Source: Saccharopolyspora aridisoli
GTDB lineage: Bacteria; Actinomycetota; Actinomycetes; Mycobacteriales; Pseudonocardiaceae
Direction: 5' to 3'
DNA length: 64,000 bases
Assembly (NCBI RefSeq): GCF_004348445.1
Contig: NZ_SMKV01000026.1
Coordinates: 1 to 64,000 of the forward strand
Positions 30,073 through 46,693 of this stretch are shown here, piece after piece (the first letter of the stretch is position 1; each line of letters begins with the position of its first letter). A program made the position numbers and the translations under genes. The notes under the pieces are model-generated. The model saw only the letters and a program-made list of their open reading frames with translations, was not told where the DNA came from and did not search any database.

Positions 30073-33019
30073 TGTCCGCGTTCAACCTCCTTCGCAGCTC
30101 GCCGGCCTCCGGAGCGTCGAGCTCCTCGTAGACCCGCACCGCCGTTTCCCAGTGGCGCGTGGCTGATTCGCGCCTGCCCGCCGCGTCGTGCAGATCGCCG
30201 AGCCCGGTGTGGGCGCGGGCCCGCACGTAGTTGCTGCACCCGCTGTTGGCCACGCCCAGGGCGTGCAGGTGGCAGCGTCTCGCTTCCGCCTCGTCGCCCA
30301 TCGCTGCGTGGGTCTCGGCCAGCGCGATGAGCGCGATCGCCTCCAGGTTCGCCGACCGCATCTGACGCGCGAAGACCAGTGCCGCGCGGTGGCCTTCCAG
30401 CGCCTGCGGGTGGTCACCGAGACAACGCCGGATGGTGCCCAGCCGGTGCAACGTCATGCCTTCGAGGAACCGGAACTTGCTGCGGCGGGCGAGCACCAGC
30501 GCGCGCTCGGCGTGCTCGGCCGCCTCGGCGAACCGGTGCAGGTCCCGGTAGAGGCCGGCCAACGCGTAGGACGCGTCGGCCTCAGCCGGCCGGTACTCGT
30601 GCGCTGCAGCCACCCGGGAGGCTTCCCGCAGGCACTCCAGCGACTCCTCGTGCCGCCCCCATCGGCGGTGCAACCGTCCGAGGCAGATCATCGGCCGCAG
30701 GCCCAGCAACCGCAGCCCGGCCTGCTGGTAGAGCCGCGTCGAACGCCGCAGGTGGTTCAGCGCCAGCTCGGTGTGCCCGGTGAACACGCAGAGCTCCCCC
30801 AGGCTCTGCAGCACAGCAGCGGTTCCGGCTGGCCCGACGGCCGTGCGCAGCGCCCGTTCCAGCAGGTCGCGGGCCGCTGCGAAGTCGTTGCGTCGGCAAT
30901 GCGCCACACCCAAGCCGCGCAGCGCGACTCCCTCTCCGACCCGATCACCGCGCCGCACGGCGATCTGCAGCGCCTTGCCGTGGAGTCGCAGAGCCGCGTC
31001 GACGTGCCAGCCGAAGTCGAGCGCCGCGTCCAGCACGATGGCGAAATCGACCGCGTAGTGCTCGAATTCGCCATCGACGATCTCTGCGATGCGCACCATG
31101 GTGTCGCGCTTGTCGTCGAGCCAGCGGGCCGCGTCCTCGTGGTCGCGGATCGGTGGCGCGGGGAAGACAGGTTCCGGCGCCGGAAGCGAGCCCGGGGCGA
31201 GGAATCCGGACGCGGTGGTGGCCACCTGCGAGTAGTAGTCGTAGAGCCGCCGCAGCGCTTCCCGCCGCTCGGTGGCGTTCTCGGTGGTGCTGGACAGCTC
31301 GGCGGCGTAGGTCCCCAGCAGGTCGTGCAGCCGGACCCGCTTGCCCGCGACCTCCTCTACCAGGTGTGCGCGCACCAGCTCTACCAGTCCCCGGCGGATC
31401 ACGCGGACGTCATCCTCCCCTGCCAGCGCGGCCAGCGAGTAGGCGTCCACCTCCTCGCCAAGGTGCAGTCCGAGCAGCCGGAACAACTTCGCCTCGGCCA
31501 CCGACAGGTTCCGGTAGGACGCGGCGAAGATGGTGCGCACCGACGCCTGCGGGTCACCGCTGTCGAGCAGGTCCAGACGCGCCTGGGCGCACCCGAATTC
31601 GGCGATGGTCTGGCTGATGCCGCGGTTGCGGTGCCGCCGCACGCGTTCCGCGGCGATGCGCAGCGCCAGCGGCAACCGGGCGCAGCACTCGATGAGCTCG
31701 TCCACGGAGCCCTCGTCGGTGACCAGGTCGCCCAGCAGTTCCTTGAGCAGCAGCCGCGCCTCGTCCGCGGACATCCGGTCCAGCTCGACCAGGTGCGCTC
31801 CGTGCCCGACGAGCAGTCCGTCGAGCTGGTGGCGGCTGGTGACCACCACCGCGCAGTCGGAGTTGCCGGGCAGCAGCGGACGCACCTGCTCGGCGCTGGC
31901 GGCGTTGTCCAGCACCAGCAGCACCCGCTTGCCGTCGAGGAGGCTGCGCAGCCGGCTGCCGCGCTCGGCCGGGTCCAGCGGTACGTCCTTGCCGTCCACG
32001 CCCAGCGCCCGCAGCCATCCGGCCAGCACGTCGCCGGGTTCAGCCGGTGTTCCGGTGCCGAACCCGCGCAGGTCGGTGTAGAGCTGACCGTCCGAGAAGC
32101 GGGTTTTGACCCGGTGCGCCCAGCGCAGCGCCAGCGAGGTCTTGCCTGCTCCGGCCGTGCCGACGATCACCGCGATCGGGATCGTGCGGGACTTGGCGTC
32201 GAGCATCGCGTCCAGCTCGGACAGCGGGAGTTCGCGGCCGACGAAATCCGATGCGCTGTGCGGCAGTTGAGCGGGTACCTGCGTCCTTCCCATGACCTCG
32301 ACCGCTTCGCCCGCGCGGATCTGACCGTGCAGGGCGCGCAGTTCCGGCCCCGGGTCCAGGCCGAGCTCGTCGTTGAGCACCTCGCACGCGTGCTGGTAGG
32401 CCGACAGCGCCTCGGCCTGCCGCCCGCTGCGGTAGAGCGCGAGCATCAGCAGGCCGTGCAACCGCTCCCGGAGCGGATCGCGGTGCACCGCATCGAGCAG
32501 TTCGCGCGCGAGGGCCTCGTGCCGACCGGCCCGCAGCTCGGCGGCGTAGCACTCCTCCACGGCCAACGACCGCTGCTCAGTGAGCCGTTCGACGACGGAG
32601 TTGACGTCGGGCAGGTCGACCTCCTGGTACGGCCTTCCCCGCCACAAGCCCAGCGCGCGCCGCAACAGCCCGGCCGCACGGGTCGGATCGGGCTCGCCCG
32701 CCGCTTCGTCGAGCAACGCCGCGAAGACCGCCGCGTCGAGTTCTCCCCTCTCGACCCGCAGGCAGTAACCAGCGGGGCCGTAGGTCAGTCGGTCCGGGTC
32801 GTCGAGTTCCCGGCGCAGCCGGTGAACGTGCACCTGAAGCCGGCTCGCCCCGTGCTCGTCCGACTCACCCCACAGCGCTTCCAACAGGACGGTCACCGGT
32901 ACCGGTTCGTTGGCGTGGGCGAGCAGAACCGCCAGCAGGCTGCGCCGCAGCGCGCCGGTCAACGGCGCCGCTCTGTCCCCGTCGAACATCCGGACCGGTC
33001 CAAGGACTTCGAACCGCAT
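30050..33019 (-). CDS. AfsR/SARP-type regulator with NB-ARC ATPase and TPR domains
   Basis: A 989-residue transcriptional regulator. Residues 1-95 form an OmpR-like winged helix (MRFEVLGPVRMFDGDRA through VHRLRRELDDPDRLTYGPAGYCL); residues 100-250 form the bacterial transcriptional activation domain with the GLWRGRPYQEVDLP and DPLRERLHGLLMLALYRSGRQAEAL blocks; a STAND-class NTPase follows with Walker A GTAGAGKTS (about 283-291), LLVLDNAAS (Walker B) and LPLALRI; the C-terminal half consists of tetratricopeptide repeats. Full-length AfsR has the same order and activates secondary metabolism in Streptomyces. ATG at 33019 follows GGGGGAAG; the open frame upstream is not conserved. No biosynthetic cluster adjoins it, so it may be a global regulator. 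Confidence 0.92.
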   Translation of the reverse strand: MRFEVLGPVRMFDGDRAAPLTGALRRSLLAVLLAHANEPVPVTVLLEALWGESDEHGASRLQVHVHRLRRELDDPDRLTYGPAGYCLRVERGELDAAVFAALLDEAAGEPDPTRAAGLLRRALGLWRGRPYQEVDLPDVNSVVERLTEQRSLAVEECYAAELRAGRHEALARELLDAVHRDPLRERLHGLLMLALYRSGRQAEALSAYQHACEVLNDELGLDPGPELRALHGQIRAGEAVEVMGRTQVPAQLPHSASDFVGRELPLSELDAMLDAKSRTIPIAVIVGTAGAGKTSLALRWAHRVKTRFSDGQLYTDLRGFGTGTPAEPGDVLAGWLRALGVDGKDVPLDPAERGSRLRSLLDGKRVLLVLDNAASAEQVRPLLPGNSDCAVVVTSRHQLDGLLVGHGAHLVELDRMSADEARLLLKELLGDLVTDEGSVDELIECCARLPLALRIAAERVRRHRNRGISQTIAEFGCAQARLDLLDSGDPQASVRTIFAASYRNLSVAEAKLFRLLGLHLGEEVDAYSLAALAGEDDVRVIRRGLVELVRAHLVEEVAGKRVRLHDLLGTYAAELSSTTENATERREALRRLYDYYSQVATTASGFLAPGSLPAPEPVFPAPPIRDHEDAARWLDDKRDTMVRIAEIVDGEFEHYAVDFAIVLDAALDFGWHVDAALRLHGKALQIAVRRGDRVGEGVALRGLGVAHCRRNDFAAARDLLERALRTAVGPAGTAAVLQSLGELCVFTGHTELALNHLRRSTRLYQQAGLRLLGLRPMICLGRLHRRWGRHEESLECLREASRVAAAHEYRPAEADASYALAGLYRDLHRFAEAAEHAERALVLARRSKFRFLEGMTLHRLGTIRRCLGDHPQALEGHRAALVFARQMRSANLEAIALIALAETHAAMGDEAEARRCHLHALGVANSGCSNYVRARAHTGLGDLHDAAGRRESATRHWETAVRVYEELDAPEAGELRRRLNADINPSVPC

Positions 33020-33815
33020 CTCGCTTCCCCCAGAAATCCACAAACGATCTATCTTGCCGCACTCCGCCCTTCGCCGCTGCCTCCGGAAAGCGGCGAGAAA
33101 GCCACGCCGCGCACATTGGCCGCACATCGTCGGCCAACTCAACAAAAAGCACTCGAATGAGTGGTACCGAGTACCTGTTCGATACAGGTTCACATTTCGG
33201 ATAGCGCGAACGGCCGGGCGACAACAGGTCCTCAGCGAATGGAGCGACTTGTCCGAGAGCCCGAACCGCTCGCGACGACGCGACGGCCGGGGCCGCGGGA
33301 ACGTCAGAGGTGATCCGACCTCTCGGGTCGGCGTGTGATCGGCTTCCGGCCTGCTGGCGAAGCAGGGCGGGGCCATGCGGTTCCTACAGGCGTGGCCAGA
33401 AAATACGATGATGCATCGCTACACCCCCAGGTGTTCGCGTAGCTTCTTCCCCAGAGCTCGGTGGTTGAACCACCGGCGTCGGTTCCGATGATGACCGTTC
33501 CCCCGAACAGCGCACAAGCTCTCAGGCCGAACAATTTTCGACGCTTGCCGCCGCCGCCATTCTGACCTGGCGCAACGCGGTGCGAATTGATTCGATCCAA
33601 TGCGCTCCGACACGCCGAGGTCGTGTCGGACCTCGCGTGCGGACCACTTCCGAACGACAGATCGGTGGTGAGGCGGCCCCCTCATCCGCCTCACCACCGC
33701 GCGCCGAGAATACGACGGAAGACGGATCGTTGCGAGATCAAACACCCCTGCCACCAGCGTGCTTTCGCCCACTCGCGATCTGCCGAGGCCACCCGGTTGG
33801 GTTAATGTCCACACC
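33020..33815. other. 796-bp divergent intergenic region between SARP regulator and carbonic anhydrase
   Basis: AT-richer than its surroundings, especially 33120-33200 and 33380-33560. It must contain the promoters of both genes. No complete gene is evident; short frames on both strands lack starts and family resemblance. A perfect inverted repeat lies at 33663-33699 (separate entry). Confidence 0.4.
33663..33699. repeat. Perfect 14-bp inverted repeat in the SARP/carbonic anhydrase gap
   Basis: CGGTGGTGAGGCGG (33663-33676) and its exact complement (33686-33699) flank a 9-nt loop, 117 bp before the carbonic anhydrase start. No gene ends nearby, so it is not an ordinary terminator; a hairpin in an unseen transcript or an operator is possible. 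Confidence 0.6.
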
Positions 33816-34448: not shown

Positions 34449-34555
34449 CGGCACCGGCCACTGTGGATGATGACCGCGGTGACCGTTCTCGGGAAGCCGG
34501 TCCTCTCGTCAAGCGTTAGCCTGCGATGGCACGTGCGGCGAAAGGAACCGGCAGC

Positions 34556-36928
34556 GTGAGCTTCCAGCCCCGTCGGGTGCTCCTGATCAGCGCCACCATC
34601 GGTGAGGGCCACAACGCGACCGCTCGTGCCGTCGAAGAGGCGGCCCACGAGGTCTGGCCCGGTTGCGAGGTGGTGTGGCTCGACGCGCTCCGCATCATGG
34701 GGCGCTGGGTTCCCGGGGCGTTCAACTGGATCTACGTCACCAACGTCGAGTCCACGCCCTGGCTCTACGACTTCTTCTACGACTCGCTGTGGCGCTACCG
34801 GTGGTTCGCCAACGCCTCGCGTCGCTTCGTCGGCGCCTGGTGCGGTCCGCTGCTGCGCCGCGAGATCCGCCGGGTCGACCCGGACATGATCGTGTCCACC
34901 TACCCGCTGGGAACCGCGGGGCTGGACTGGATGCGGCGGCACGGCGACCTCGACCTCCCCGTCTCAGCGGTGGTGTCGGACTTCGCGCCGCACCCGTTCT
35001 GGGTGTACCCGGAAGCCGACCTGCACTACGTGATGAGCGAGGCGAGCCTGCGCGCGATGCACCGCGCCGAGCCCGAGGCGATCGGCGCGGTGTCGGTGCC
35101 GCCGGTGCGACGCGACTTCCAGCCCCGCGATCGCACCGAGGCGCGAGCCGAGTTCGGATTCCCGGAAGCCGGGTTCACGGCGCTGATCTCCTGCGGTGCG
35201 ATGAGCTTCGGCGCGGTGGAGCGAGCCGTGGACGCGGCGCTGCGGGTCGAGGGTCTCGCCCGGGTCCTCGTGGTGTGCGGGCGCAACGAGGCGTTGCGGG
35301 AGCGCCTGCTCGCACGGGGCGAGCAGCGGCTGGTGCCGCTGGGCTGGGTCGAGGACATGCCCGGCCTGATGGCCTGCTCGGACGTGGTGATCACCAACGC
35401 CGGTGGCGCCACGGCGTTGGAGGCGCTGGCCTGCGGGCGCGCGGTGCTGATGTTCGAGCCGATCGCCGGTCACGGCAGGGCCAACGCCGAGCTGATGGCC
35501 GACGCGGGTCTGGCCGAGCTGTGCCCGGAGGGATCGCAGCTGACCGCGACGCTGCGTCGCTGGGTCGCGGACCCGCAGGAGGTCGGCGAACGCGAGGAGC
35601 GGGCGCTCAAGCACAGCCGATCGGCGGAGTTCGCCGATCAGGTCGCAGCCTTGGCCGACCTGCCCCGCCACCACGGCCCGCGTCGACTGCGCCCGCAGGA
35701 CGCCTTCTTCGTCTACGCCACCACACCTGAGGTGCCGCAGCACACCGGGGCCGTCCTGCGCCTGGAGCCGTCGCCGGATCCAGCACGGGTGTGGTGCGAA
35801 CACCTCGCCCGCCGCATCCAGGACTGCGCGCCGTCGCTACCGATGCTGAACCGCACGCTGGTCACCCGACCCAGACGTCGTCCACAGTGGAGGAACGCTG
35901 GACCGGTCGACCCCGCCCTGCACCTCAGCTTTCGCGAGCTCGGCCCCGACCAGGACGCCGAGGGGCTCACGAGCGAGTTCTTCTCGACGCCGGTGCGCAC
36001 CGACCGCCCTCCGTGGGAGCTGCGCCTGCTGCACGACGCGGCCACCGGCCGGGTGACCCTGCTGGCGAAGATGCACCACTCCCTGGGTGACGGCCTGGCC
36101 GTCGCCAACGCGCTGATCCGGCTGCTCTGCGACGGCCACCACCCCGCTTCGGCCCCGAGCGCGAGCGGGCGGTCGTGGGTGCAGCAGGCCCCGCTGGTGC
36201 TGCGCGGACTCCTCGGCCTGGCCACCTCCGCCGGGGCGCCCGACCCAGCCTGGACCGGGCGGAGTTCGCACGCGCGCAGCTTCGGTCACGTGACGCTGCC
36301 GGCGGCGCAGGTCCGCGCCCGCGCGCGCGATCAAGGCGTGACCAGCAGCGCCCTGCTCATCGGGCTGGTCGCCGAGGCGCTGCACCGCGCGCTCGGCGAG
36401 CAACGACGCGAGGCCCGGTTCCGGGTGATGGTTCCGCGCACGGCCCGCACCGGGCGCGACGGCGCCGGTACCGCCGCTCCCGGCAACCACACGCAGTCGC
36501 TGTCGGTGGACCTCCCGGTCGGGCCGATGCCGCTGGTGTGGCGGATCCGCGCGGTCGCCGACGCGCTCGCCGAACCCGACCACAGCGGACAACCCGAGGC
36601 GGCAGGCGCGGTGCTGGCCGGGCTCGGCCTGCTGCCCGCCCCGGTGCACGCGTGGATCGTGCGGCGCATCTACGGGCGCCGGTTCTTCAACGCGGTGGTC
36701 TCGGTGATGCCGGGCCAACGGCGCCCCGCCCACGTCAACGGCACCCGGCTCAGCCAGGTGCTGCCGGTGCTGTCGCTGGCCGACGGCGTCGGCGTGGCGA
36801 TCGGGGCGATCGGATGGGCCGAGGAGTTCGGCTTCGGCATCACCACCGATCCCGGACTCGCACCCGACGCCGGGCGGTTGGCCGCACACCTGCGGGAGGC
36901 GTTCGACGAGCTGCGGGAGAGGCGTTGA
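34556..36928 (+). CDS. Fused MGDG-synthase-like glycosyltransferase and wax ester synthase/DGAT acyltransferase
   Basis: A 790-residue two-enzyme protein. Residues 1 to about 375 are a GT28-type glycosyltransferase of the MGDG-synthase family: LISATIGEGHNATARAVEEA at the N-terminus, DFAPHPFWVYPEADLHYVMS, LISCGAMSFG, and the nucleotide-sugar site GWVEDMPGLMACSDVVITNAGG. After a short linker, residues about 385-790 are a WS/DGAT acyltransferase: start QDAFFVYATTPEVPQHTG, the catalytic HHSLGDG (507-513, pattern HHxxxDG), APGNHTQSLSVDLPV and a C-terminal domain with FFNAVVSVMPG. Together it should glycosylate a lipid alcohol and acylate it (or the sugar). GTG at 34556 has AAAGGAA 10 nt upstream; ATG at 34526 is the alternative. 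The stop overlaps the next start. It lies beside, and faces, the hopanoid operon. Confidence 0.88.
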   Translation: MSFQPRRVLLISATIGEGHNATARAVEEAAHEVWPGCEVVWLDALRIMGRWVPGAFNWIYVTNVESTPWLYDFFYDSLWRYRWFANASRRFVGAWCGPLLRREIRRVDPDMIVSTYPLGTAGLDWMRRHGDLDLPVSAVVSDFAPHPFWVYPEADLHYVMSEASLRAMHRAEPEAIGAVSVPPVRRDFQPRDRTEARAEFGFPEAGFTALISCGAMSFGAVERAVDAALRVEGLARVLVVCGRNEALRERLLARGEQRLVPLGWVEDMPGLMACSDVVITNAGGATALEALACGRAVLMFEPIAGHGRANAELMADAGLAELCPEGSQLTATLRRWVADPQEVGEREERALKHSRSAEFADQVAALADLPRHHGPRRLRPQDAFFVYATTPEVPQHTGAVLRLEPSPDPARVWCEHLARRIQDCAPSLPMLNRTLVTRPRRRPQWRNAGPVDPALHLSFRELGPDQDAEGLTSEFFSTPVRTDRPPWELRLLHDAATGRVTLLAKMHHSLGDGLAVANALIRLLCDGHHPASAPSASGRSWVQQAPLVLRGLLGLATSAGAPDPAWTGRSSHARSFGHVTLPAAQVRARARDQGVTSSALLIGLVAEALHRALGEQRREARFRVMVPRTARTGRDGAGTAAPGNHTQSLSVDLPVGPMPLVWRIRAVADALAEPDHSGQPEAAGAVLAGLGLLPAPVHAWIVRRIYGRRFFNAVVSVMPGQRRPAHVNGTRLSQVLPVLSLADGVGVAIGAIGWAEEFGFGITTDPGLAPDAGRLAAHLREAFDELRERR

Positions 36929-37830
36929 CCACCGGGACGGTGGTGGCGGTCGCGGTGCCGGCCGCGGTGATCGGTGCCGCGAGCTTCGGGATGGCCAGCG
37001 CGATCCAGCACCGCGTCACCAAGCAGGTCCCCGAAGTCGCCACGTTCAGCCCGCGGATGCTGTGGGACCTGGTGCGCAAACCGATCTGGGTGCTCAGCAT
37101 CGGCACCGTGATCATCGGCTTGTCGCTCCAGGTGGTGGCGCTGGCGTTCGGTCCGCTGGTGCTGGTGCAGCCGCTGCTGGTGACCTCTGTGCTGTTCGGC
37201 GCGGCGTTCGCCGCGTGGCTGGCGGGCAGGCGGATGGACCTCGTCCTGGCGATCGGCGCGTTGTCGTGCGCGGGCGGGTTGGCGGCGTTCCTGCTCCTGG
37301 CACGGCCCTCCGGCCAGGGCAGCGAGTTCACCGGAGCGCCCGTGCTCCCGCTGGCGCTGGGGATGGGACTGCTGGTGATCATGTCGCTGCTGGCGGCCCG
37401 GTGGCTTCCCGGCGAGTTCGGCGTGGTGGGCCTGGCCGTGGCCACCGGGGTGTTCTACGGGGTCACGGCCGGGTTGATGCGCGTGGTGGCCGGCCAGTTC
37501 CGCACCGGCGGGCTCGTCGAGCCCTTCGGGCACTGGACGTTGTACGTGGTGTGCGTGATCGGGCCGATGGGTTTCCTGCTCAGCCAGCAGACCTTCCAAC
37601 GAGGCCGGTTGATGTCGCCGTCGCTGGCGGTGATCACCACGGTCGATCCGCTGGTGGCGGCGGCGATCGGGGTGAGCTGGCTGGGTGAGCGCATCGAGTC
37701 CTCCCCCACCATCCTGGCCGGCGAGGCGGTCGCGGGAGCGCTCATGGTCGGCGGCATCGTCGTGCTGGCGCGGCGCAGCGAGCAGATCGGCCGCGAGCTG
37801 GCCGCCAAGGGCAGCGAGTCGTGGGGATGA
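36925..37830 (+). CDS. DMT/EamA-type multispanning membrane protein
   Basis: A 301-residue protein with nine to ten hydrophobic helices, resembling drug/metabolite transporter (EamA, NIPA-like) family members: an ASFGMASAIQHR start, LQVVALAFGPLVLVQPL in the second helix pair, GEFGVVGLAVATGVFYG, and SLAVITTVDPLVAAAIGVSWLGE repeated in the second half. It could move a lipid, sugar or small metabolite. The TTG start at 36925 overlaps the stop of the fusion gene (TTGA) with a GGGAGAGG site inside that gene; the stop overlaps the next start (ATGA). Translational coupling on both sides implies a shared job with the fused lipid enzyme, for example export or flipping of its product. Confidence 0.8.
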   Translation: MTTGTVVAVAVPAAVIGAASFGMASAIQHRVTKQVPEVATFSPRMLWDLVRKPIWVLSIGTVIIGLSLQVVALAFGPLVLVQPLLVTSVLFGAAFAAWLAGRRMDLVLAIGALSCAGGLAAFLLLARPSGQGSEFTGAPVLPLALGMGLLVIMSLLAARWLPGEFGVVGLAVATGVFYGVTAGLMRVVAGQFRTGGLVEPFGHWTLYVVCVIGPMGFLLSQQTFQRGRLMSPSLAVITTVDPLVAAAIGVSWLGERIESSPTILAGEAVAGALMVGGIVVLARRSEQIGRELAAKGSESWG

Positions 37831-38513
37831 ACTCGGCCCTGATCACCGGCGCGTCCTCGGGGATCGGCGCGGCAACCGCCCTCCGACTCGCAGCCGACGG
37901 CTGGCAGGTCGTGCTGGCCGGACGCGACCGGACGCGCCTGGAGGCGCTGGCCGAGCGCACCGGAGGCGAGTCCGTCGCCGGGGACCTGACCACCGATGAC
38001 GGGCTGCGGCAGGTGGCGGATGCGGCGAACGGGGTTGATCTGCTGGTGCACAGCGCCGGGATCGGCTGGGCGGGAGCGTTCGCCGACATGCCCCCGGAGC
38101 GCATCGACGAGCTCGTCGAGCTGAACCTGACCGTTCCGATGCGGCTGACGCGCGCGGTCCTGCCACCGCGGGTGGCGTTCGTGGCCTCGGTGGCCGTGGT
38201 GGGCGTCCGCGACGAGGACGTCTACTCGGCAAGCAAAGCGGGGCTGCGGGCCTTCGCCGCGAGCCTGCGCTACCGGGGCATCGCCACGACGACGGTGTTC
38301 CCCGGCGCGGTGCGCACGCCGTTCTTCCACGGCCGCGACTACCGGCGCCGGTTCCCGCGCATGGTCGAGCCGCGGGAAGTCGCCGACGCCCTGGTGGACG
38401 CGGTGGTGCGCGGCCGCGCGGAGGTCTTCGTACCGGGCTGGCTGACCGCGGCCGACCGGGTCCACGGCGCGCTGCCCGGCGTCTTCCACCGCCTCGCCCG
38501 CAGGTTCGGCTGA
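37827..38513 (+). CDS. Short-chain dehydrogenase/reductase
   Basis: A 228-residue classical SDR: cofactor motif ALITGASSGIGAATAL at the N-terminus, basic residue pattern (GRDRTRL) suggesting NADPH, HSAGIGWAGAF, catalytic Ser in FVASVAVVG and YSASK (Tyr-x-x-x-Lys). The FPGAVRTPFF segment is typical of the DltE/short SDR group. It is coupled by an ATGA overlap to the membrane protein before it and forms the last gene of the operon that begins with the fused glycosyltransferase/acyltransferase. Substrates could be the lipid alcohol or aldehyde that the fused enzyme uses. ATG at 37827 is preferred over GTG at 37821. Confidence 0.85.
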   Translation: MNSALITGASSGIGAATALRLAADGWQVVLAGRDRTRLEALAERTGGESVAGDLTTDDGLRQVADAANGVDLLVHSAGIGWAGAFADMPPERIDELVELNLTVPMRLTRAVLPPRVAFVASVAVVGVRDEDVYSASKAGLRAFAASLRYRGIATTTVFPGAVRTPFFHGRDYRRRFPRMVEPREVADALVDAVVRGRAEVFVPGWLTAADRVHGALPGVFHRLARRFG

Positions 38514-38640: not shown

Positions 38641-39642
38641 CTAGCCGCGCACGGCTCGGAGCGATTCCCGCAGCGAGCCCATGGTGGCCAGGACCGAGGT
38701 GGGTTCGTAGCCGCAGTGGGCCATGCAGTTCGCGCAGCGCGGGTCGTTGCCGCGCCCGTAGGCCGCCCAGTCTGTGTCCTCCAGCAACTCCCGGTAGCTG
38801 CTCGCGTAGCCGTCGCTCATCAGGTAGCAGGGCCGTTGCCAGCCGTAGAGCGAGTAGGACGGGATGGCCCAGGCCGTGCACCCGAAGTCGATCTTGCCTT
38901 CGAGGAAGTCCAGGAACAGCGGCGAGTGGTTGAAGCGCCACCTCTTCCGCCGCCCGTCGGCGAAGACCTTCCTGAACAGCTCGCGGGTCTCGGTCACGCC
39001 GAGGAAGTGCTCCTGGTCCGGCGCCTTGTCGTAGGCGTAGGCCGGCGAGAGCATCATCTGGTCGACCTTGAGGTCGTTGTTGAGGTAGTCGAGCACTTCG
39101 ATCACCGACTGCGGCGTGTCGGTGGTGAAGAAGGTCGAATTCGTGGTCACCCGGAATCCGCGCCGCTGGGCGTCCTCGACGTTGTCCACGGCCTGGGCGA
39201 ACACCCCCTGCTTGCACACCGAGGCGTCGTGGCGCTCTTCCAGTCCGTCGATGTGCACGGCGAAGGAGAAGTACGGGGACGGCTCGAACTCGTCGATCTT
39301 GCGCGGCATCAGCAGCGCGTTGGTGCACAGGTAGACGAACTTCTTGCGCTTGACCAGTTCCTTGACCAGCACGTCGATCTCGGGGTGCATCAGTGGTTCA
39401 CCACCGGCGATGGACACCACCGGGGCACCGCACTCCTCGACCGCGGCCAACGCCTGCTCGACCGGCATCCGCTGCTTGAGAACGCTTGCCGGGTGCTGGA
39501 TCTTCCCGCACCCGGCGCACGCCAGGTTGCAGGCGAACAGCGGTTCCAGTTCCAGGGTGAGCGCGAACTTCTCGCGCCGGGCCAGCTTCTGCTTCATCAG
39601 GTACGCACCGACGCGAACCGCTTGGCGCACGGGAATTCCCAT
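38641..39642 (-). CDS. hpnH: Adenosyl-hopane synthase, radical SAM enzyme HpnH
   Basis: Adds the 5'-deoxyadenosyl group of SAM to diploptene, giving adenosylhopane, the first C35 hopanoid. The 333-residue protein has the radical-SAM cluster motif Cys38-x3-Cys42-x2-Cys45 in ACNLACAGCG, the SAM-binding SIAGGEPLMHPEI, and the HpnH-specific Cys-rich C-terminus GNDPRCANCMAHCGYEPT. N-terminal MGIPVRQAVRVGAYLMKQKL is the usual start. It is the last gene of the minus-strand hopanoid operon, 2 bp after hpnG, and its stop (38641) faces the stop of the SDR gene 127 bp away. Within that gap no strong terminator hairpin is seen. Confidence 0.96.
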   Translation of the reverse strand: MGIPVRQAVRVGAYLMKQKLARREKFALTLELEPLFACNLACAGCGKIQHPASVLKQRMPVEQALAAVEECGAPVVSIAGGEPLMHPEIDVLVKELVKRKKFVYLCTNALLMPRKIDEFEPSPYFSFAVHIDGLEERHDASVCKQGVFAQAVDNVEDAQRRGFRVTTNSTFFTTDTPQSVIEVLDYLNNDLKVDQMMLSPAYAYDKAPDQEHFLGVTETRELFRKVFADGRRKRWRFNHSPLFLDFLEGKIDFGCTAWAIPSYSLYGWQRPCYLMSDGYASSYRELLEDTDWAAYGRGNDPRCANCMAHCGYEPTSVLATMGSLRESLRAVRG

Positions 39643-39644
39643 GG

Positions 39645-40304
39645 TTACAACGCCTCCTCACAGGTCGTGCGAAGTTCCGGTGGGATGTGGCGGCCCCACC
39701 GCCGCAGGCAGGAGCCCACGGCGTGCAGCCGCGCCAGTCCGGACATCACCCGGTGAACGGTGCCGGGCCGCAGCAGGGGTTGTTGCGCGGTGTCGACCAC
39801 GACGCGCACGATCGCCAGCGGCCGGTGCCCCGCGGCCTGGGCCAGCACCGCCGATTCCATGTCCACCGCGAGCGCACCCGTTGCGGTTAGCTCGGCGCGG
39901 CGCTGACCGTGGACCAGCGCGTCGGCGGTCACGACCGGCCCGCAGCGCACCGGGAACCCGCTGCGCGTGAGTTCGGCGGCCAGCGAGTGGGCCGTCTCGC
40001 AGCGCAGCACCTCGCGGTGTCCGCGCAGTTCGTCGGCGACGATCACGTCCCCGCTGCGCACCTCCGGTGACAGCCCGCCCGCCAGGCCCGCGACCACCAG
40101 GACGTCGAAGTCCGCGGCCAGCAGCCGGACCGCGCTGCTCGCGCTGCGGCGCGGCCCGTACCCGGTGCGGCGCACCGTCACCGAATCGGCTCCGAGCCCG
40201 GTGGTGCGCAGGGTTTCCTGGCCGGTCGCGGCCCCACCGAGGGCGGAGCGCAGCGCGCTGGCCTCCAGTCGCATCGGCGCGCAGATCAGCATCCTCGTCG
40301 ACAT
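39645..40304 (-). CDS. hpnG: Adenosylhopane nucleosidase/phosphorylase HpnG
   Basis: Removes adenine from adenosylhopane to yield ribosylhopane (or its phosphate), the precursor of bacteriohopanepolyols. The 219-residue protein belongs to the purine nucleoside phosphorylase/MTA-SAH nucleosidase fold: an N-terminal strand RMLICAPMRLEA, VAGLAGGLSPEVRSGDVIVAD, and VDMESAVLAQAAG with the ribose-binding Met-Glu pair. Identification rests on fold plus position between shc and hpnH, as in other hopanoid operons. Stop and start are 1-2 bp from both neighbours. ATG at 40304. Confidence 0.88.
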   Translation of the reverse strand: MSTRMLICAPMRLEASALRSALGGAATGQETLRTTGLGADSVTVRRTGYGPRRSASSAVRLLAADFDVLVVAGLAGGLSPEVRSGDVIVADELRGHREVLRCETAHSLAAELTRSGFPVRCGPVVTADALVHGQRRAELTATGALAVDMESAVLAQAAGHRPLAIVRVVVDTAQQPLLRPGTVHRVMSGLARLHAVGSCLRRWGRHIPPELRTTCEEAL

Positions 40305-40305
40305 G

Positions 40306-42246
40306 TCACTCCCCGTCCCGCAGGTAGCGCCCGAGCGCGGTCAGCGGGAAGATCACCCGGTACAGGTGGTAGTTGATGTAGAAGTCCCCGGGGAACCCGG
40401 TCCCGGTGAACTGGGGTTCGTCCCAATTGCCGTCGGCGCGCTGGCTTCGGGCCAGGTAGCCGATCCCGCGGCGCACCGCGTCGGTGTCGTGCCTGCCCAC
40501 GGCCAGCAGCGCCATCAGCGCCCAGCCCGTCTGGGAGGCCGTGGAGGTGCCTCGGCCGATCCACTGGGGATCGTCGTAGGAGCGCAAGTCCTCGCCCCAG
40601 CCTCCGTCATCGTTCTGGTGGTTCTCCAGCCAGCGCACGGCGTCCCGCAACGCGCGGTGCTGGCGATCCACTCCGGCCGCGACCAGGGCGGGCACGACGG
40701 CACCGGTGCCGTAGACGTGGTTGGCGCCCCACCGCCCGAACCACGACCCGTCGCGCTCCTGGTTGGACAGCAGCCACTTCACCCCGCCGCGCAACACCTC
40801 GTCGTGCTCGCCGAGGACGGCCAGCGCCTCCACCACGTGCGCGGTGACATCGGCCGAGGGCGGGTCGATGACCTCGCCGAAGTCGCAGAACGGCAGCTTG
40901 CCCACCAGCTGCCGGGTGTTGTCGGCGTCGAACGCTGCCCAGCCGCCGTCCTTCGAGCGCATCCCGCGCAACCAGCGGACACCACGCGCGATCGCACCGC
41001 GCACGGCTTCCGAGTCGGGGTGCTCAACGCGGTTGAGCGCGAGGAGCACCTCGGCGGTGTCGTCGATGTCGGGGTATCCGTCGTTGTCGAACTCGAACGC
41101 CCAGCCACCCCCAGCGGGCAGCTCCGGGCGCTTGACCGACCAGTCACCCTTGACCCGGATCTCCTCGGCCAGCAGGTAGTCCACCGCTCGCTGCAGCGAC
41201 GGGTGGTCGGCGGGAACACCGGCGTCGCGCAGCGCCTGCACGCCCAGAACGGTGTCCCACACCGGAGACTGGCACGCCTCCAGCCTGCGGACGGTGCCCT
41301 CGGGCGTCTGCTCGCGGATCAGGAACCGCTCCAGCCCGCCGAGGCCCTTGGCGATCACCGGGTGGTTCATCGGGTAGCCGAGCAGGTGCAGCGCGAGGAT
41401 CGAGTACACCCACGGAGGCTGGATGCCGCCCCACGAGCCGTCGGCCTCCTGGCGCGCCACGATCCACTCGGCCGCGCGCCGCATCGCGTGCGTGCGCAGC
41501 GATTTCACCGGTCGGCGGTGGTAGCGGTGCAGAACGCGGTCGAGGGTGTGGAAGCCGTAGCCCCAGGACCACTCGCGCTTCGGTCGCGCCGCGGGCCGCC
41601 CGGTGCGCAGCTCCCGCAACCCGATGCCCAGGTCGCGGCGCGGGCGCATGGTGCACACCACGGTCAGCGGCACCACGGTCTGACGGGCCCAGCACGCCCA
41701 GTCGGAAACGTTGAGCGGGCACCACTCGGGCAGCAGCACCACTTCCGGCGGCATGGCGGGCAGGTCGTCCCAGGACCACTCGCCGAACAGCGCCAGCCAG
41801 ATCCGGGTGAACACCCGGGTTCCCTCCAGGCCACCGCTGTCCAGGATCCAATCCCTGGCGGCCCGCATGTGCGCGGCGTCGACGTCGTCACCGGCGAGCT
41901 TGAGGGCCGCGTACGCCTCGACCGTGGTGGACAGATCGCCGGGACCACCGTGGAAGGTCGCCCAGGTGCCGTCCTCGCGCTGCTGGGAGCGGATCCAGCG
42001 GGCCGTCTGCACGGTTTCCGACGAGGTGCGGATGCCGAGGAACTGCCGCAGCAGCAGGTCCTCGACGTCCATGGTCACGTTGGTGTCCAGCTCGCCCTTC
42101 CACCAGCCCTCCGGGCTCTGCAACGACAGCAGGTGGTCGCGGGCGGCCAGCGCCGCCGTCCGGGCTTCGGCCCGCGCCGCTCCCTGGCTGGGGATCTGGA
42201 CGGCGGTGGCGGCCGATCGCGTGGGCTGTTGCAGCTGTTCGGTCAA
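40306..42246 (-). CDS. shc: Squalene-hopene cyclase
   Basis: Cyclises squalene to hopene (diploptene) and hopanol at the membrane. The 646-residue protein has the catalytic DxDD (residues 393-396, DIDD) and a full set of QW-type repeats: QSPEGWWKGEL, QREDGTWATF, QEADGSWGGI, SKDGGWAAF, QERDGSWFGRWG, QNDDGGWGED and QRADGNWDEP. GTGFPGDFYINYHLYR and the PLTALGRY end complete the family pattern. The start is TTG at 42246, overlapping the stop of the polyprenyl synthase gene (TTGA), with a GGAGGAAG site inside that gene. It sits centrally in the hopanoid operon. Confidence 0.97.
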   Translation of the reverse strand: MTEQLQQPTRSAATAVQIPSQGAARAEARTAALAARDHLLSLQSPEGWWKGELDTNVTMDVEDLLLRQFLGIRTSSETVQTARWIRSQQREDGTWATFHGGPGDLSTTVEAYAALKLAGDDVDAAHMRAARDWILDSGGLEGTRVFTRIWLALFGEWSWDDLPAMPPEVVLLPEWCPLNVSDWACWARQTVVPLTVVCTMRPRRDLGIGLRELRTGRPAARPKREWSWGYGFHTLDRVLHRYHRRPVKSLRTHAMRRAAEWIVARQEADGSWGGIQPPWVYSILALHLLGYPMNHPVIAKGLGGLERFLIREQTPEGTVRRLEACQSPVWDTVLGVQALRDAGVPADHPSLQRAVDYLLAEEIRVKGDWSVKRPELPAGGGWAFEFDNDGYPDIDDTAEVLLALNRVEHPDSEAVRGAIARGVRWLRGMRSKDGGWAAFDADNTRQLVGKLPFCDFGEVIDPPSADVTAHVVEALAVLGEHDEVLRGGVKWLLSNQERDGSWFGRWGANHVYGTGAVVPALVAAGVDRQHRALRDAVRWLENHQNDDGGWGEDLRSYDDPQWIGRGTSTASQTGWALMALLAVGRHDTDAVRRGIGYLARSQRADGNWDEPQFTGTGFPGDFYINYHLYRVIFPLTALGRYLRDGE

Positions 42247-43250
42247 AGCTTCCTCCGTACGATGAATTCAGCGAGCTCTCGCAGTGCCGCGGTGTCGCCC
42301 AGCGATCCGACTTCGAGCTGCGCCTCCGCGATTTCGAGTCGGCGGCGGCACTCCCCCCGCGTCCAGTCCTCGGAACCGGCGCGACGCACCATCTCGGCGG
42401 CTTCGCACAACTGCGCCTCGGTGAGCTGTTCGGGCTGCTCGTAGAGCTCCCACAACCGCTCCCCCGCTGCTGTTCCTGAGGTCAGGGCGTGCACCACCGG
42501 GACCGTCTTCTTGCGGGTGCGCAGGTCCGACAGCACTGGTTTGCCGGTGACCTCCGGGTCTCCCCACAGGCCCAGCAGGTCGTCGACCAGCTGGAACGCC
42601 ATCCCCAGCTCGGTGCCGTAGGCGTGCAGCGCGCGAACGCCCTCCCGCGGGGCTCCGACGCTCAGCGGCCCGATGGAGCAGGCGCAGGCCAGCAGCGCGG
42701 CGGTCTTGTCGTGCGCCATGCTCAGGCATTCGGTGAGGTCGACGTCGTGGCGGCGTTCGAAGCCCAGATCGGCGGTCTGCCCGGCGATGAGCACCCGGGT
42801 GGTCGTCAACAACGAGCGCACCGCCACCGACGCGTGGGGGGCATCGGATTCCAGCAGGACCTCCGGTGCCATGGTCAGCAGCGCGTCACCCGCCAGGATC
42901 GCCGCGGACGATCCGAAGACCGTCCAGGCGGTGGGCCGGTGCCTGCGGGAGATGTCGCCGTCCATCACGTCGTCGTGCAGCAGCGAGAAGTTGTGCACGA
43001 TTTCCACCGCTGCCGCCGCCGGGACGCCGTGTTCTGCTGTGCCGCATGCTGTTTCGGTCGCGGCGAGGACCATCGCGGGACGCAGCGCCTTGCCCCCGGC
43101 GTCGGTGGGCGAGCCGTCGACGCCGATCCAGCCGAAGTGGTACTCGCTGACCCGCCGGGTGTCGGCGTCCAGCCGCGCCACCGCCGAGCGCAGCGTCGGT
43201 TCGACCTGCTCCCGCGCTGTGCGCAGGGCCAGAGGCAGGAGTGTGGTCAT
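42243..43250 (-). CDS. Polyprenyl diphosphate synthase of the hopanoid operon
   Basis: A trans-isoprenyl diphosphate synthase of 335 residues, likely making farnesyl diphosphate for HpnD. The first Asp-rich motif is DDVMD (residues 93-97, in HNFSLLHDDVMDGD) and the second DDLLG (223-227, in GMAFQLVDDLLGLWGD). The first motif has two residues between the Asp groups, as in actinobacterial FPP/GGPP synthases. GKALRPAMV and RRHRPTAWTVFG are other family segments. Chain length cannot be fixed by eye; the residue before the first motif region (Phe/Ser at -5/-4) would be the place to look. ATG at 43250 overlaps the stop of hpnE by 4 bp. Its presence makes the operon self-sufficient from C5 units. 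Confidence 0.9.
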   Translation of the reverse strand: MTTLLPLALRTAREQVEPTLRSAVARLDADTRRVSEYHFGWIGVDGSPTDAGGKALRPAMVLAATETACGTAEHGVPAAAAVEIVHNFSLLHDDVMDGDISRRHRPTAWTVFGSSAAILAGDALLTMAPEVLLESDAPHASVAVRSLLTTTRVLIAGQTADLGFERRHDVDLTECLSMAHDKTAALLACACSIGPLSVGAPREGVRALHAYGTELGMAFQLVDDLLGLWGDPEVTGKPVLSDLRTRKKTVPVVHALTSGTAAGERLWELYEQPEQLTEAQLCEAAEMVRRAGSEDWTRGECRRRLEIAEAQLEVGSLGDTAALRELAEFIVRRKL

Positions 43251-44608
43251 GCCGTCACCTCCACGCTCGTCCGCGCTCGCTGTTCGGCGTCCACCACTTC
43301 GGCGGCGCGGATCCCGCTTCGCACCGCGCCTTCGGTGGTGTCCGGCCAGCCGGTGGCCGTCCACGCACCGGCGAGCACCAAGCCGGGCACGTCGGTGTTC
43401 GCGGAAGGACGGAGTGCCGCGCTGCCGGGCGCCTGCCGGAAGGTGGCGTGAGGTTCGCGGGTGACGAAGAAGTCCAGCAGATTCGCCTTCCCGACCGCGG
43501 GGAACAGCTCGCGCAGCGCCGGGAGGAAGATCTCGCGCAGTTCTTCGGTCCGCATCCCGATCTCCTGCTGCGCGGCGGACTGCGACAGCGCCAGGTACTG
43601 GCCTCGACGGGCACCGGAGATGCGGGTGCGGTCGAAGACCCACTGCACGGGCGAGTCGAGCACGGCGGCCATTTCGACATCGGTGACCGCGCGGTCGAAG
43701 TGGGCGTGCACGTTGACGATCGGCGATGACGACAGCCGGGACCACTCAGCAGAGCCGCGCACCGGCAGCTCGTCGACGAGAGCCGCAGCCGCCGGGTGCG
43801 GGGTGGCCACCACGACGGAGTCCGCGTCGAGCACGCTCGCGCCGGCCTGCTCCTCGACCGGTATTTGGAAACCCTTCGGCCCGCGGCGGATCGCGCGCGC
43901 CTTGCACCGGAGCCGCACGTCGACGCCCGCCGCGAGCAGGGTGCGCCGCCCGGCCTCGCCGTGCAGCTCGGAGAGCGGTCGCTGCGGGACCCCGATGTCG
44001 CAGGCGTCGGAGTTTTCGAGCAATCCGGTGCGGAAAACTCTGGCGGCCAGCGCCATCGAGGCATCGTCGGGTTCGGCGTTGAGCGCGGCCACGGCCAGCA
44101 GACCCCACAGCGCGTCGACCGCGCGCGGTGTCTCGCCCTGATCGCGCAACCACTGGCCGAGGCTCTTCTCGTCGATCGCCGGGTCGAGGGGGTCGATGCC
44201 GCGCAGCGCGAGCGCGGTGCGCGCCGCCCGGACCCGCTGCGCGACGTTGAGCCGCCGGTAGCTCAGCAGCGCCGGGGCCAGGTGCGCGGGGGCGCGCAGG
44301 TTCCAGCGGGTCAGCGACGCCGATGCCGCACCCGGGCTGAGCACGGGCACGCGGAACTTCTGCTGCAACCGGATCCCGTCGGCCGCGCCGAACCTGCGCA
44401 GCAGGTCGAGGTAGGCGGTGTAGCAGCGCAGCAGCACGTGCTGACCGGTGTCGACCAGCAGGTCTCCGCGCGTGAACGAGTAGGTCGCCCCGCCGAGCCG
44501 GGGCCTCGCCTCCAGCAGCCGCGCGGAGTACCCGCGTTCCCGGCAGTCCAGGGCAGCGGCCATGCCGGCGAGCCCGCCGCCGATGACCACCACGGTCCCG
44601 CGGTTCAC
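43247..44608 (-). CDS. hpnE: Hydroxysqualene dehydroxylase HpnE
   Basis: FAD-dependent enzyme of the amine-oxidase/phytoene-desaturase superfamily that reduces hydroxysqualene to squalene. The 453 residues begin with the dinucleotide-binding motif VIGGGLAGMAAALDCRERG (residues 8-26) and LLEARPRLGGATYSF; GLVLAGAWTATGWPDTTEGAVRSG is the C-terminal FAD-site block. GTG at 44608 overlaps the stop of hpnD (GTGA). Together with HpnC and HpnD it replaces a one-enzyme squalene synthase. Annotation from family plus operon is safe. Confidence 0.92.
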   Translation of the reverse strand: MNRGTVVVIGGGLAGMAAALDCRERGYSARLLEARPRLGGATYSFTRGDLLVDTGQHVLLRCYTAYLDLLRRFGAADGIRLQQKFRVPVLSPGAASASLTRWNLRAPAHLAPALLSYRRLNVAQRVRAARTALALRGIDPLDPAIDEKSLGQWLRDQGETPRAVDALWGLLAVAALNAEPDDASMALAARVFRTGLLENSDACDIGVPQRPLSELHGEAGRRTLLAAGVDVRLRCKARAIRRGPKGFQIPVEEQAGASVLDADSVVVATPHPAAAALVDELPVRGSAEWSRLSSSPIVNVHAHFDRAVTDVEMAAVLDSPVQWVFDRTRISGARRGQYLALSQSAAQQEIGMRTEELREIFLPALRELFPAVGKANLLDFFVTREPHATFRQAPGSAALRPSANTDVPGLVLAGAWTATGWPDTTEGAVRSGIRAAEVVDAEQRARTSVEVTA

Positions 44609-45468
44609 GGCGTCATCCCGGCCAGCGAGCGGACCGCGACTCCCGCTTTGCGCCAGCCCGACAGCGAGGTCCGCTGGTGCATCGCGGCGTTGGGATCAGT
44701 GGCGATGCGCACCAGCAGCTGGTGGTAGATGCCCGCCATCGAGGCACAGCAGGCGCGCGAGCGCCGGTCCAGCATCGGCAGCAGCCGGAAGCCCTCGGTG
44801 TACCAGCGGTCGGCGCGCGCGGCTTGGAACCGCATCATCCTGTTCCACCTCACGGTGTCCTCGACGAACCCGCCACCGGGTTCCAGCCGCACGCCGAAGT
44901 GCGCGAGGTCGGAGGCGGGCAGGTACACCCGACCGTTGAGCTGGTCCTCGCGGACGTCGCGCAGGATGTTGGTCAGCTGCAACGCCACGCCGAGCGCGTC
45001 AGCCCGCGCCGTGGCGACGTTCGGTTCGTCAGTGCCGAACACGCCCAGCGACAGCCGGCCGATCGAACCCGCTACGCAGCGGCAGTAGTGCAGCAGCTCG
45101 TCGAAGGTCGTGTAGCTGGTGCCGCGCACGTCGGCCTCGCAACCGTCGATGAGTTCGTCGAACGCTTCCAGTGACAACGGCATGCGCGTCGCGGCATCGG
45201 CCAAGGCGACCAGCACCGGATCGGTCGAGTCGGTCGACGACTGGTGCACGGCTTCGCGGCACGCCTTGAGCTCGCGCAGCTTCTCCTCGCGCGGCAGGTC
45301 GCCGTCGCCCACGTCGTCCACGCGGCGGGCGAACGCGTAGACCGCCGAGAGCGCGCCGCGCTTCGGACCTGGCAGCAGCCGGATGCCGTAGGAGAAGTTG
45401 CGGGCCTGCTCGCGGGTGATCCGCTCGCACTCCTGGTAGGCGTCCCGCAACCGGGTAGGTGAGGTCAC
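44605..45468 (-). CDS. hpnD: Presqualene diphosphate synthase HpnD
   Basis: Condenses two farnesyl diphosphates into presqualene diphosphate. The 287-residue squalene/phytoene-synthase-fold protein has the two Asp-rich motifs, AFARRVDDVGDGD and LTNILRDVREDQLNGRVYLP, and the YCRCVAGSIGRLSLGVFG segment. GTG at 45468 overlaps the hpnC stop (GTGA); the open frame extends 11 codons further but is not conserved. Of the two paralogous synthases in the operon this one keeps both complete motifs, fitting HpnD. Confidence 0.92.
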   Translation of the reverse strand: MTSPTRLRDAYQECERITREQARNFSYGIRLLPGPKRGALSAVYAFARRVDDVGDGDLPREEKLRELKACREAVHQSSTDSTDPVLVALADAATRMPLSLEAFDELIDGCEADVRGTSYTTFDELLHYCRCVAGSIGRLSLGVFGTDEPNVATARADALGVALQLTNILRDVREDQLNGRVYLPASDLAHFGVRLEPGGGFVEDTVRWNRMMRFQAARADRWYTEGFRLLPMLDRRSRACCASMAGIYHQLLVRIATDPNAAMHQRTSLSGWRKAGVAVRSLAGMTP

Positions 45469-46373
45469 CGAGTTCCTCCCATCGCGTGCAGCCGCGCCCA
45501 TTCGGTGAAGGTGCGCGACTTGCTCGGGCTGACCTGCGCGGCCAGCGGGTCGTGTCCAGCCGCGCGGAACGCGGCGACGGTGGCCAGCCCGCCTGCGACG
45601 TAGCCGGCGACGGCCACCCGGGCGGTGCCCGACAGGGCACCGACCAGGACGCTGCCATCGCGCAGCATCCGGCGAGCGCGGTCGACCTCGAAGCGCACCA
45701 GCCCGCGCAGCGCGGTCGAGGCGCGCGGCGCTGTGAAGTCCTGCTCGTCGCAGCCGTAGCGCTTGAGGTCCTCGGCGGGCAGGTAGACGCGGCCGGCCAG
45801 GTGATCTTCAGCGAGGTCCTGCAGGTGCTCCAGGAGCTGCAGCGCGGTGCAGATCTTGTCGGACAGGGCGATCAGGCCCTCCTCGGCGCGGCCGAAGACG
45901 TGCAGCACCGACTCCCCCACCGGGTTGGCCGACAGCGCGCAGTAGTCCAGCAGGCCGGCGAAGTCGTCGTAGCGCTTGACGTGCTGGTCCCACCGGTTGG
46001 CCTCGATCAGCTTGACCAGCGTGGACATCGGGATTCCGCACTCGGTGACCGTGGGCTCCAGCGCCTGCATGATGGAGGTGCGCGCGGTGCCCTGGTAGGC
46101 GCGTTCGAGGTCGTGTTCGAGGAAGGCCAGCAGCGCGTCGCGGTTGCCGGGGGCCTCGTCCCCGGCGTAGTCGACGAGCCGGAAGTAGCCGTAGAGGGCG
46201 TGCAGGTGCCTGCGGACACCGCCGGGCAGGACGCGGGAAGCCACCGGGAAGTTCTCCGAACGCATTCTCGCCAGCACGGCGGCGCTGCGCGGCAGCTCCC
46301 CCGGACGCGCCGACCACTGCGGGTGTTCGGGATCCTCTCCGGACAGCGTCTCGTCCGGCAACGACAAGACCAT
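45465..46373 (-). CDS. hpnC: Hydroxysqualene synthase HpnC
   Basis: Converts presqualene diphosphate to hydroxysqualene. It is a 302-residue squalene/phytoene-synthase-like protein with NFPVASRVLP near the start (typical of HpnC), HLHALYGYFRLVDYAGDE with a shortened first Asp motif, and ALQLLEHLQDLAEDHLAGRVYLP as the second. It is the first gene of the seven-gene hopanoid operon. ATG at 46373 is preceded by AGGAGGAGG, the best ribosome binding site in the region; the open frame continues 72 codons upstream through a non-conserved stretch. Confidence 0.92.
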   Translation of the reverse strand: MVLSLPDETLSGEDPEHPQWSARPGELPRSAAVLARMRSENFPVASRVLPGGVRRHLHALYGYFRLVDYAGDEAPGNRDALLAFLEHDLERAYQGTARTSIMQALEPTVTECGIPMSTLVKLIEANRWDQHVKRYDDFAGLLDYCALSANPVGESVLHVFGRAEEGLIALSDKICTALQLLEHLQDLAEDHLAGRVYLPAEDLKRYGCDEQDFTAPRASTALRGLVRFEVDRARRMLRDGSVLVGALSGTARVAVAGYVAGGLATVAAFRAAGHDPLAAQVSPSKSRTFTEWARLHAMGGTR

Positions 46374-46461
46374 CGGTCCTCCTCCTATCCACCGGCCAGG
46401 AGGCGCAACCGGCATCGTATGAGCGCCCCTGCCGCACCGCAGGGCGAACGAAGAACCACGT

Positions 46462-46476
46462 GAATCACGGTGATTC
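46462..46476. promoter_or_regulatory. Palindrome GAATCAC-G-GTGATTC upstream of the hopanoid operon
   Basis: A perfect 7+7 inverted repeat with one central base, 89 bp before the hpnC start. A TACGAT hexamer (minus strand, near 46413) could be the -10 of the operon, placing the palindrome around -50 where an activator or repressor could act. Intergenic region 46374-46736 has no gene. Confidence 0.5.
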
Positions 46477-46693
46477 GCGCCGGTGTTCGACCACGCACCT
46501 TCTCCCGTTCCATATTGGACACCGGAAGCGCGCGTCCCGCGCAGACCCGCCAGCAGGTGGCCGGATCGAGTGGCCAGCCCTGACCACAATGGACCAGTCG
46601 ACTACCCACCGCGACTGCGCGCGGGCGTGAGGGACGACCCCGGGTCACCGAGTCGGCGCAGCGCTAGGCCGAAGCGGATCCGCCGGAGCAGAA

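Follow-up and report, generated by a model that had tools for sequence, protein, structure and literature searches.

A glycosyltransferase-acyltransferase fusion encoded beside hopanoid genes in soil actinobacteria is a probable hopanoid-tailoring enzyme

Introduction

Hopanoids, sterol-like bacterial lipids, order membranes and give rise to geological biomarkers in wide use; genes have been assigned for only part of the biosynthesis of their side chains. The protein described here joins a glycosyltransferase to an acyltransferase; for both halves, the substrates of the nearest characterised relatives are diacylglycerol or fatty alcohols. Ribosylhopane reductase activity was reportedly found by Bodlenner in 2015 in extracts of Methylobacterium. 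Ribosylhopane is converted either to aminotriol by HpnO or to bacteriohopanetetrol (BHT) by an enzyme that has not been established (PMC12583986, 2025). A hopanoid that bears a sugar as well as a fatty acyl group, N-acylglucosaminyl-bacteriohopanetetrol, is attributed to Alicyclobacillus acidocaldarius by Hippchen, as cited in PMC8537080.

The open-access papers searched yielded no prior account of the fusion, its link to hopanoids or the adjoining SDR. Both enzyme families are already known; what we regard as new is the architecture of a hopanoid-tailoring enzyme, together with an adjoining candidate for an open enzymatic step.

Results

The fusion and its operon

The window analysed is a stretch of 64,000 nucleotides from Saccharopolyspora aridisoli. 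An earlier note on this DNA had proposed that a single polypeptide combines a lipid glycosyltransferase with a WS/DGAT acyltransferase and is translationally coupled to a DMT-type membrane protein and an SDR. The features of the locus are as follows.

34556..36928, plus strand: fusion of a GT28 glycosyltransferase (MGDG-synthase/UgtP type) and a WS/DGAT acyltransferase, in one frame; alternative ATG start at 34526
34556..35656, plus strand: glycosyltransferase half, motifs GEGHNAT and TNAGGAT; nearest solved relatives UgtP (9wde) and MGD1 (4wyi/4x1t)
35687..36925, plus strand: WS/DGAT half, HHSLGDG active site at 36074-36094; nearest solved relatives 6chj and 7nxg
36925..37830, plus strand: DMT-family membrane protein (NF038012, 79.7 bits, cut-off 50), proposed flippase for the glycosylated product
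37821..38513, plus strand: classical SDR (TGASSGIG, YSASK) with one clear orthologue in hopanoid-producing actinobacteria, candidate ribosylhopane reductase
38641..39642, minus strand: hpnH, adenosylhopane synthase (TIGR03470, 522.5 bits, cut-off 225), convergent with the SDR gene
39645..40304, minus strand: hpnG-like adenosylhopane phosphorylase (TIGR03468, 87 bits, below the cut-off of 187), placed by context
40306..42246, minus strand: shc, squalene-hopene cyclase (TIGR01507, 747.5 bits)
42243..43262, minus strand: polyprenyl diphosphate synthase of the hopanoid cluster
43247..44608, minus strand: hpnE (TIGR03467, 410.9 bits)
44605..45501, minus strand: hpnD (TIGR03465, 285.8 bits)
45465..46589, minus strand: hpnC (TIGR03464, 260.5 bits)

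The fusion ORF encodes 800 residues from the ATG at 34526 and 790 from the GTG at 34556, the latter being preceded by a better Shine-Dalgarno stretch (GAAAGGA). A profile search matched four Pfam models to this one ORF, each above its curated cut-off and in the order MGDG_synth (29-178), Glyco_tran_28_C (219-371), WS_DGAT_cat (388-630) and WS_DGAT_C (653-796; 800-residue numbering), with only a short linker between the halves. The scores were 53.8 bits (cut-off 25) and 31.0 bits (cut-off 22) for the glycosyltransferase models and 73.3 and 58.9 bits for the acyltransferase models. The domain search that the earlier note had suggested thus returned the expected models on both halves and bore out its claim of a single polypeptide with both families. 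The HHSLGDG motif it had placed at 507-513 is intact at that position in the 790-residue numbering, which is 517-523 in the longer form. The top NCBIfam matches were a WS/DGAT subfamily and diglucosyl-diacylglycerol synthase; the score against the former (TIGR02946) was 197.5 bits, under the curated cut-off of 309.95, which places the acyltransferase half outside that subfamily and argues that it is divergent from standard TAG synthases.

An alignment of 41 fused members showed that the GxGHxA motif and the sugar-nucleotide GG(A)T motif are kept in all 41, and that HHxxxDG is kept in every one but L089, which has LHAQADG. A Kutzneria-type fused member outside the alignment (L038) has DHALGDG in place of HHxxxDG, and these two changes may reflect a loss of acyltransferase activity. 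A structure model built from 41 relatives had a mean pLDDT of 89.5 and a pTM of 0.77. In a Foldseek search with this model the C-terminal half resembled 6chj and 7nxg and the N-terminal half resembled MGD1 (TM-score 0.76 over the target), and none of the matches listed was a solved structure spanning both halves. The domains, the conservation of the motifs and the confident structure model support the prediction that the fusion is bifunctional, a glycosyl/acyl transferase whose two active sites are both intact.

The start of the DMT gene overlaps the stop of the fusion (TTGA, 36925-36928), and the start of the SDR gene overlaps the stop of the DMT gene (ATGA at 37827), which confirms the translational coupling of the three genes. 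The operon converges on a complete hopanoid cluster at 38641-46589, with 128 bp between the ends of the SDR gene and hpnH on opposite strands. The earlier note was therefore right about the coupled DMT and SDR genes, but it missed the full hopanoid cluster that faces them.

The polyprenyl synthase of the cluster scored 420.9 bits on the model for family 2 encapsulin cargo polyprenyl transferase (cut-off 450), and the hpnI model matched none of the window proteins scanned. Beyond the hpnC end, at 48262-50270, lie the ATPase and permease of a sugar-type ABC transporter. An open frame of up to 1108 residues at 30050-33376 resembles, as judged by eye, a SARP/AfsR-type regulator.

Distribution of the fusion

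A full-length fusion without stops was present in 22 of 22 same-genus genomes searched, the window's own included; identity to the window's protein in the other 21 was 58-93%, and the closest by similarity was that of S. endophytica (93%). The taxonomic survey that had been suggested also detected the fusion in 79 of 249 genomes drawn from the window's family and in at least three actinobacterial lineages beyond it. Fusion records come from Saccharopolyspora, Halosaccharopolyspora, Actinopolyspora, Prauserella, Kutzneria, Gandjariella, Pseudonocardia, Micromonospora and Actinopolymorpha, as well as from MAGs assigned to Microlunatus and Nocardioidaceae. Had two genes been joined by an error of sequencing or assembly, a stop or frameshift near codon 375-385 would, according to the earlier note, be expected; none was seen in the 22 same-genus genomes and dozens more, all of which carry the fusion in one frame. 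Given that more than 40 independent assemblies show a one-frame, stop-free fusion, we rejected the artefact reading, the probability of which we take to be negligible.

Co-occurrence and linkage with hopanoid genes

Among the same 249 family genomes hpnH was found in 103; both genes were present in 77, the fusion alone in 2, hpnH alone in 26 and neither in 144. The co-occurrence of hpnH in 77 of the 79 fusion-bearing genomes gave a Fisher p of 9e-39, a value that ignores phylogeny and is not to be taken as a probability. In one exception, G144, a fragment of hpnH lies at the edge of a contig; the other, G130, is a fragmented draft, 93% complete. Where the fusion and hpnH lay on the same contig, 73 of 75 pairs were within 25 kb (median 2.4 kb), and hpnH was located elsewhere in four of the five fusion-bearing genomes that lack hpn genes beside the fusion.

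Neighbourhoods were compared in about 100 loci. The commonest order is the fusion, DMT and SDR genes in one direction, followed by hpnH, hpnG and shc in the opposite direction. In Pseudonocardia acaciae and several MAGs the operon is found past the hpnC end; most Pseudonocardia have it after hpnH with an extra divergent GT28 gene; and several Micromonospora have the DMT gene shifted upstream. On the fusion tree each of these three alternative layouts makes up a single, well supported clade, and proximity has therefore survived three rearrangements. In Saccharopolyspora, Actinopolyspora, Prauserella, Kutzneria, Pseudonocardia, Micromonospora and Microlunatus the operon adjoins either hpnH or the cluster's far end, and the linkage reaches Micromonosporaceae and MAGs assigned to Microlunatus and Nocardioidaceae; the fusion is unlinked to hopanoid genes in Actinopolymorpha and one Streptosporangiales MAG. 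The fusion thus behaves as a gene of the hopanoid cluster both in its co-occurrence with hpnH and in a proximity kept through rearrangement. Distant phylum-wide WS/DGAT and GT28 matches (L154-L168) had no hpn genes in stretches of up to about 10 kb on each side, indicating that neither family in general is a neighbour of hopanoid genes.

The second, divergently transcribed GT28 gene beside the fusion (L093:7655-8800 and its equivalents in other Pseudonocardia) may add a second sugar. The carbonic anhydrase encoded upstream of the operon was considered as a partner and rejected, because outside Saccharopolyspora it was seen just once, as a 42% match in Micromonospora.

Separated halves and related genes at other hopanoid clusters

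In trees built for each half, the unfused glycosyltransferase of Amycolatopsis, the unfused acyltransferase of genus g47 and the Planosporangium versions nest inside the fused clade, and they are most simply explained as losses or splits. In g47 the glycosyltransferase and DMT genes are absent from the locus, while the acyltransferase and SDR genes remain beside hpnH. In Amycolatopsis the glycosyltransferase gene is found with the DMT gene away from the hpn cluster, and no WS/DGAT gene is present there. These arrangements suggest two working pairs, glycosyltransferase with DMT protein and acyltransferase with SDR.

Other GT28 genes occur at the hopanoid clusters of families f99 and f103 and of Micromonosporaceae, and beside the SDR gene in f115. 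Two loci at the hpnC end in f103 (L136:17284-19283 and L137:597-2881) have a GT28 gene next to a polysaccharide deacetylase gene, an arrangement that recalls HpnI/HpnK, to which it is apparently unrelated. Families f108 and f113 and Amycolatopsis-type genomes have WS/DGAT genes at the hpnC end; in one of the last (G258, L177:3353-5347) the gene there encodes a 664-residue fusion of a PAP2 phosphatase with a WS/DGAT domain.

The SDR and hpnH

Both SDR motifs (TGxxxGxG and YxxxK) are present in 121 of 127 loci, and YxxxK in all 127. Exactly one SDR match with E below 1e-25 was obtained in 14 of 15 chosen genomes (44-52% identity, the window's own aside), and in most of them it shares a contig with hpnH, even in lineages without the fusion. 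A survey of 395 class genomes detected the SDR in 55 of the 56 hpnH-positive genomes outside family f18, within 25 kb of hpnH in all 37 of those in which the two share one contig, and in only 6 of 303 hpnH-negative genomes. In f18 the SDR was seen in 11 of 36 genomes, never near hpnH, and was not found in the other 25. The f18 cluster order is, we presume, that of the Streptomyces coelicolor cluster. All 17 f18 genomes tested had the aminotransferase HpnO, as did 6 of the other genomes searched, while the remainder gave no match at the threshold applied. The window's family has essentially none, the search there yielding no more than two partial matches (45%) within a 919-codon frame.

The SDR thus accompanies hpnH, tied to hopanoids more closely even than the fusion, and appears dispensable where HpnO is used (55 of 56 genomes as against 11 of 36, unlinked in the latter). 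With nearly all hpnH-positive genomes outside f18 having the SDR and f18 having HpnO, the profile is in keeping with a BHT branch. The SDR itself resembles an enzyme of the hopanoid pathway, and its distribution and position make it a strong candidate for the ribosylhopane reductase.

Discussion

The position of the fusion beside hopanoid genes in many soil actinobacteria argues that it probably decorates hopanoids, and we lean toward the view that it is a hopanoid-tailoring enzyme that glycosylates and acylates a hopanoid polyol. The gene context points to a C35 bacteriohopanepolyol, rather than diacylglycerol, as the most likely substrate. That other GT28 or WS/DGAT genes turn up repeatedly at the hopanoid clusters of further families also favours the hopanoid reading. 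The substrates, order of steps, products, transporter role and SDR reaction that we infer would be as follows. HpnH and HpnG, encoded on the facing strand, would make ribosylhopane, which the SDR would reduce to BHT. The GT28 half would transfer a hexose from a UDP-sugar onto a hydroxyl of the hopanoid polyol, the WS/DGAT half would acylate the polyol or the attached sugar with a fatty acyl group from acyl-CoA, and the DMT protein would carry the glycosylated lipid to the other side of the membrane. An acylated glycosyl-hopanoid is the expected product. We know of no such compound reported from these genera. More tentatively, the whole operon could be an undescribed actinobacterial hopanoid branch in which the SDR makes BHT and the fusion converts it to an acylated glycosyl-hopanoid unreported from these bacteria; we put this fuller proposal forward as possible, short of probable.

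Of what the earlier note had read from the fusion, the bifunctional glycosyl/acyl enzyme stands on its domains, motifs and structure model, but a generic acyl-glycolipid pathway, presumably based on diacylglycerol, is not where the context leads, as the fusion follows hopanoid genes in both presence and position. As for its idea of sequential action on one lipid, the halves separate in the lineages that have only one of them, the acyltransferase staying with the SDR at the hopanoid genes of g47 and the glycosyltransferase with the DMT protein elsewhere in Amycolatopsis, and the two activities may therefore not be strictly sequential on one molecule. The Amycolatopsis pair, lying away from the hpn cluster, the unlinked fusions of Actinopolymorpha and one Streptosporangiales MAG, a co-occurrence statistic that ignores phylogeny, and the altered motif in a few members are also points against the hopanoid reading itself.

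Because the characterised relatives use diacylglycerol, the main rival to a hopanoid-tailoring enzyme is one that makes diacylglycerol-based glycolipids. The glycosyltransferase would produce glucosyl- or galactosyl-diacylglycerol, the WS/DGAT half would acylate that glycolipid or convert the same pool to triacylglycerol, and the hopanoid genes would be neighbours because the same conditions call for membrane remodelling by both. That the closest solved relatives are the diacylglycerol glucosyltransferase UgtP, MGD1 and two WS/DGATs is consistent with such an enzyme, as are the separate glycosyltransferase-DMT pair of Amycolatopsis and the WS/DGAT domain at the hopanoid cluster of an Amycolatopsis-type genome, whose fusion to a PAP2 phosphatase would suit triacylglycerol synthesis. 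We nevertheless consider it unlikely, given that glycosyltransferases and acyltransferases of the fused clade are found almost only in hpnH-bearing genomes, that in g47 the acyltransferase is still found with the SDR at hpnH although the glycosyltransferase is missing, and that the acyltransferase half is divergent from standard TAG synthases (197.5 against 309.95 bits). It is also doubtful, though somewhat less so, that two independent activities were fused for co-expression only, one half acting on a hopanoid polyol and the other on another lipid, with no doubly modified product. The survival of each half alone, glycosyltransferase with DMT protein and acyltransferase with SDR, speaks for this, but most of the clade has kept the fusion with its two sites intact, suggesting that the pairing is useful. 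Such independence would overlap with the explanation we prefer, as at least one half would still be assigned to hopanoids (the acyltransferase, or in the reverse case the glycosyltransferase).

The linkage to hopanoid genes might also be an inherited neighbourhood without shared function. Much of the proximity lies within one family with a common arrangement, and the tests ignore shared descent; yet proximity is retained in the three rearranged clades, other neighbours are not retained, and the linkage extends to Micromonosporaceae and to the MAGs assigned to Microlunatus and Nocardioidaceae, all of which makes mere inheritance quite improbable.

The fusion is an unusual way of coupling the glycosylation of a membrane lipid with its acylation. 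For the step from ribosylhopane to BHT the locus supplies a concrete candidate, and it may also hold a route to acylated glycosyl-hopanoids; should these prove real, they would form a new lipid class to be sought in soil actinobacteria and sediments.

The N-terminal half has the fold and the GxGH and GGAT-type motifs of UgtP/YpfP, the processive diacylglycerol glucosyltransferase, and of plant MGD1; unlike these enzymes, to which it is only distantly similar in sequence, the fusion is linked to hopanoid genes and carries an acyltransferase. The C-terminal half shares its fold and HHxxxDG with the bacterial WS/DGATs of Marinobacter (6chj) and Acinetobacter (AbWSD1, 7nxg), but it falls below the TIGR02946 cut-off and is joined to a glycosyltransferase, and its unfused g47 relative lies at hpnH. 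The role we propose, glycosylation of BHT within a hopanoid cluster, is that of proteobacterial HpnI/HpnK, a BHT N-acetylglucosaminyltransferase and a deacetylase, although HpnI belongs to a different glycosyltransferase family. With respect to ribosylhopane reductase, the SDR has the distribution and position expected for that activity in actinobacteria, and the activity itself is predicted. The acylated sugar-hopanoid of Alicyclobacillus acidocaldarius, a member of a different phylum, is a precedent for a hopanoid with both kinds of group, such as the fusion would make.
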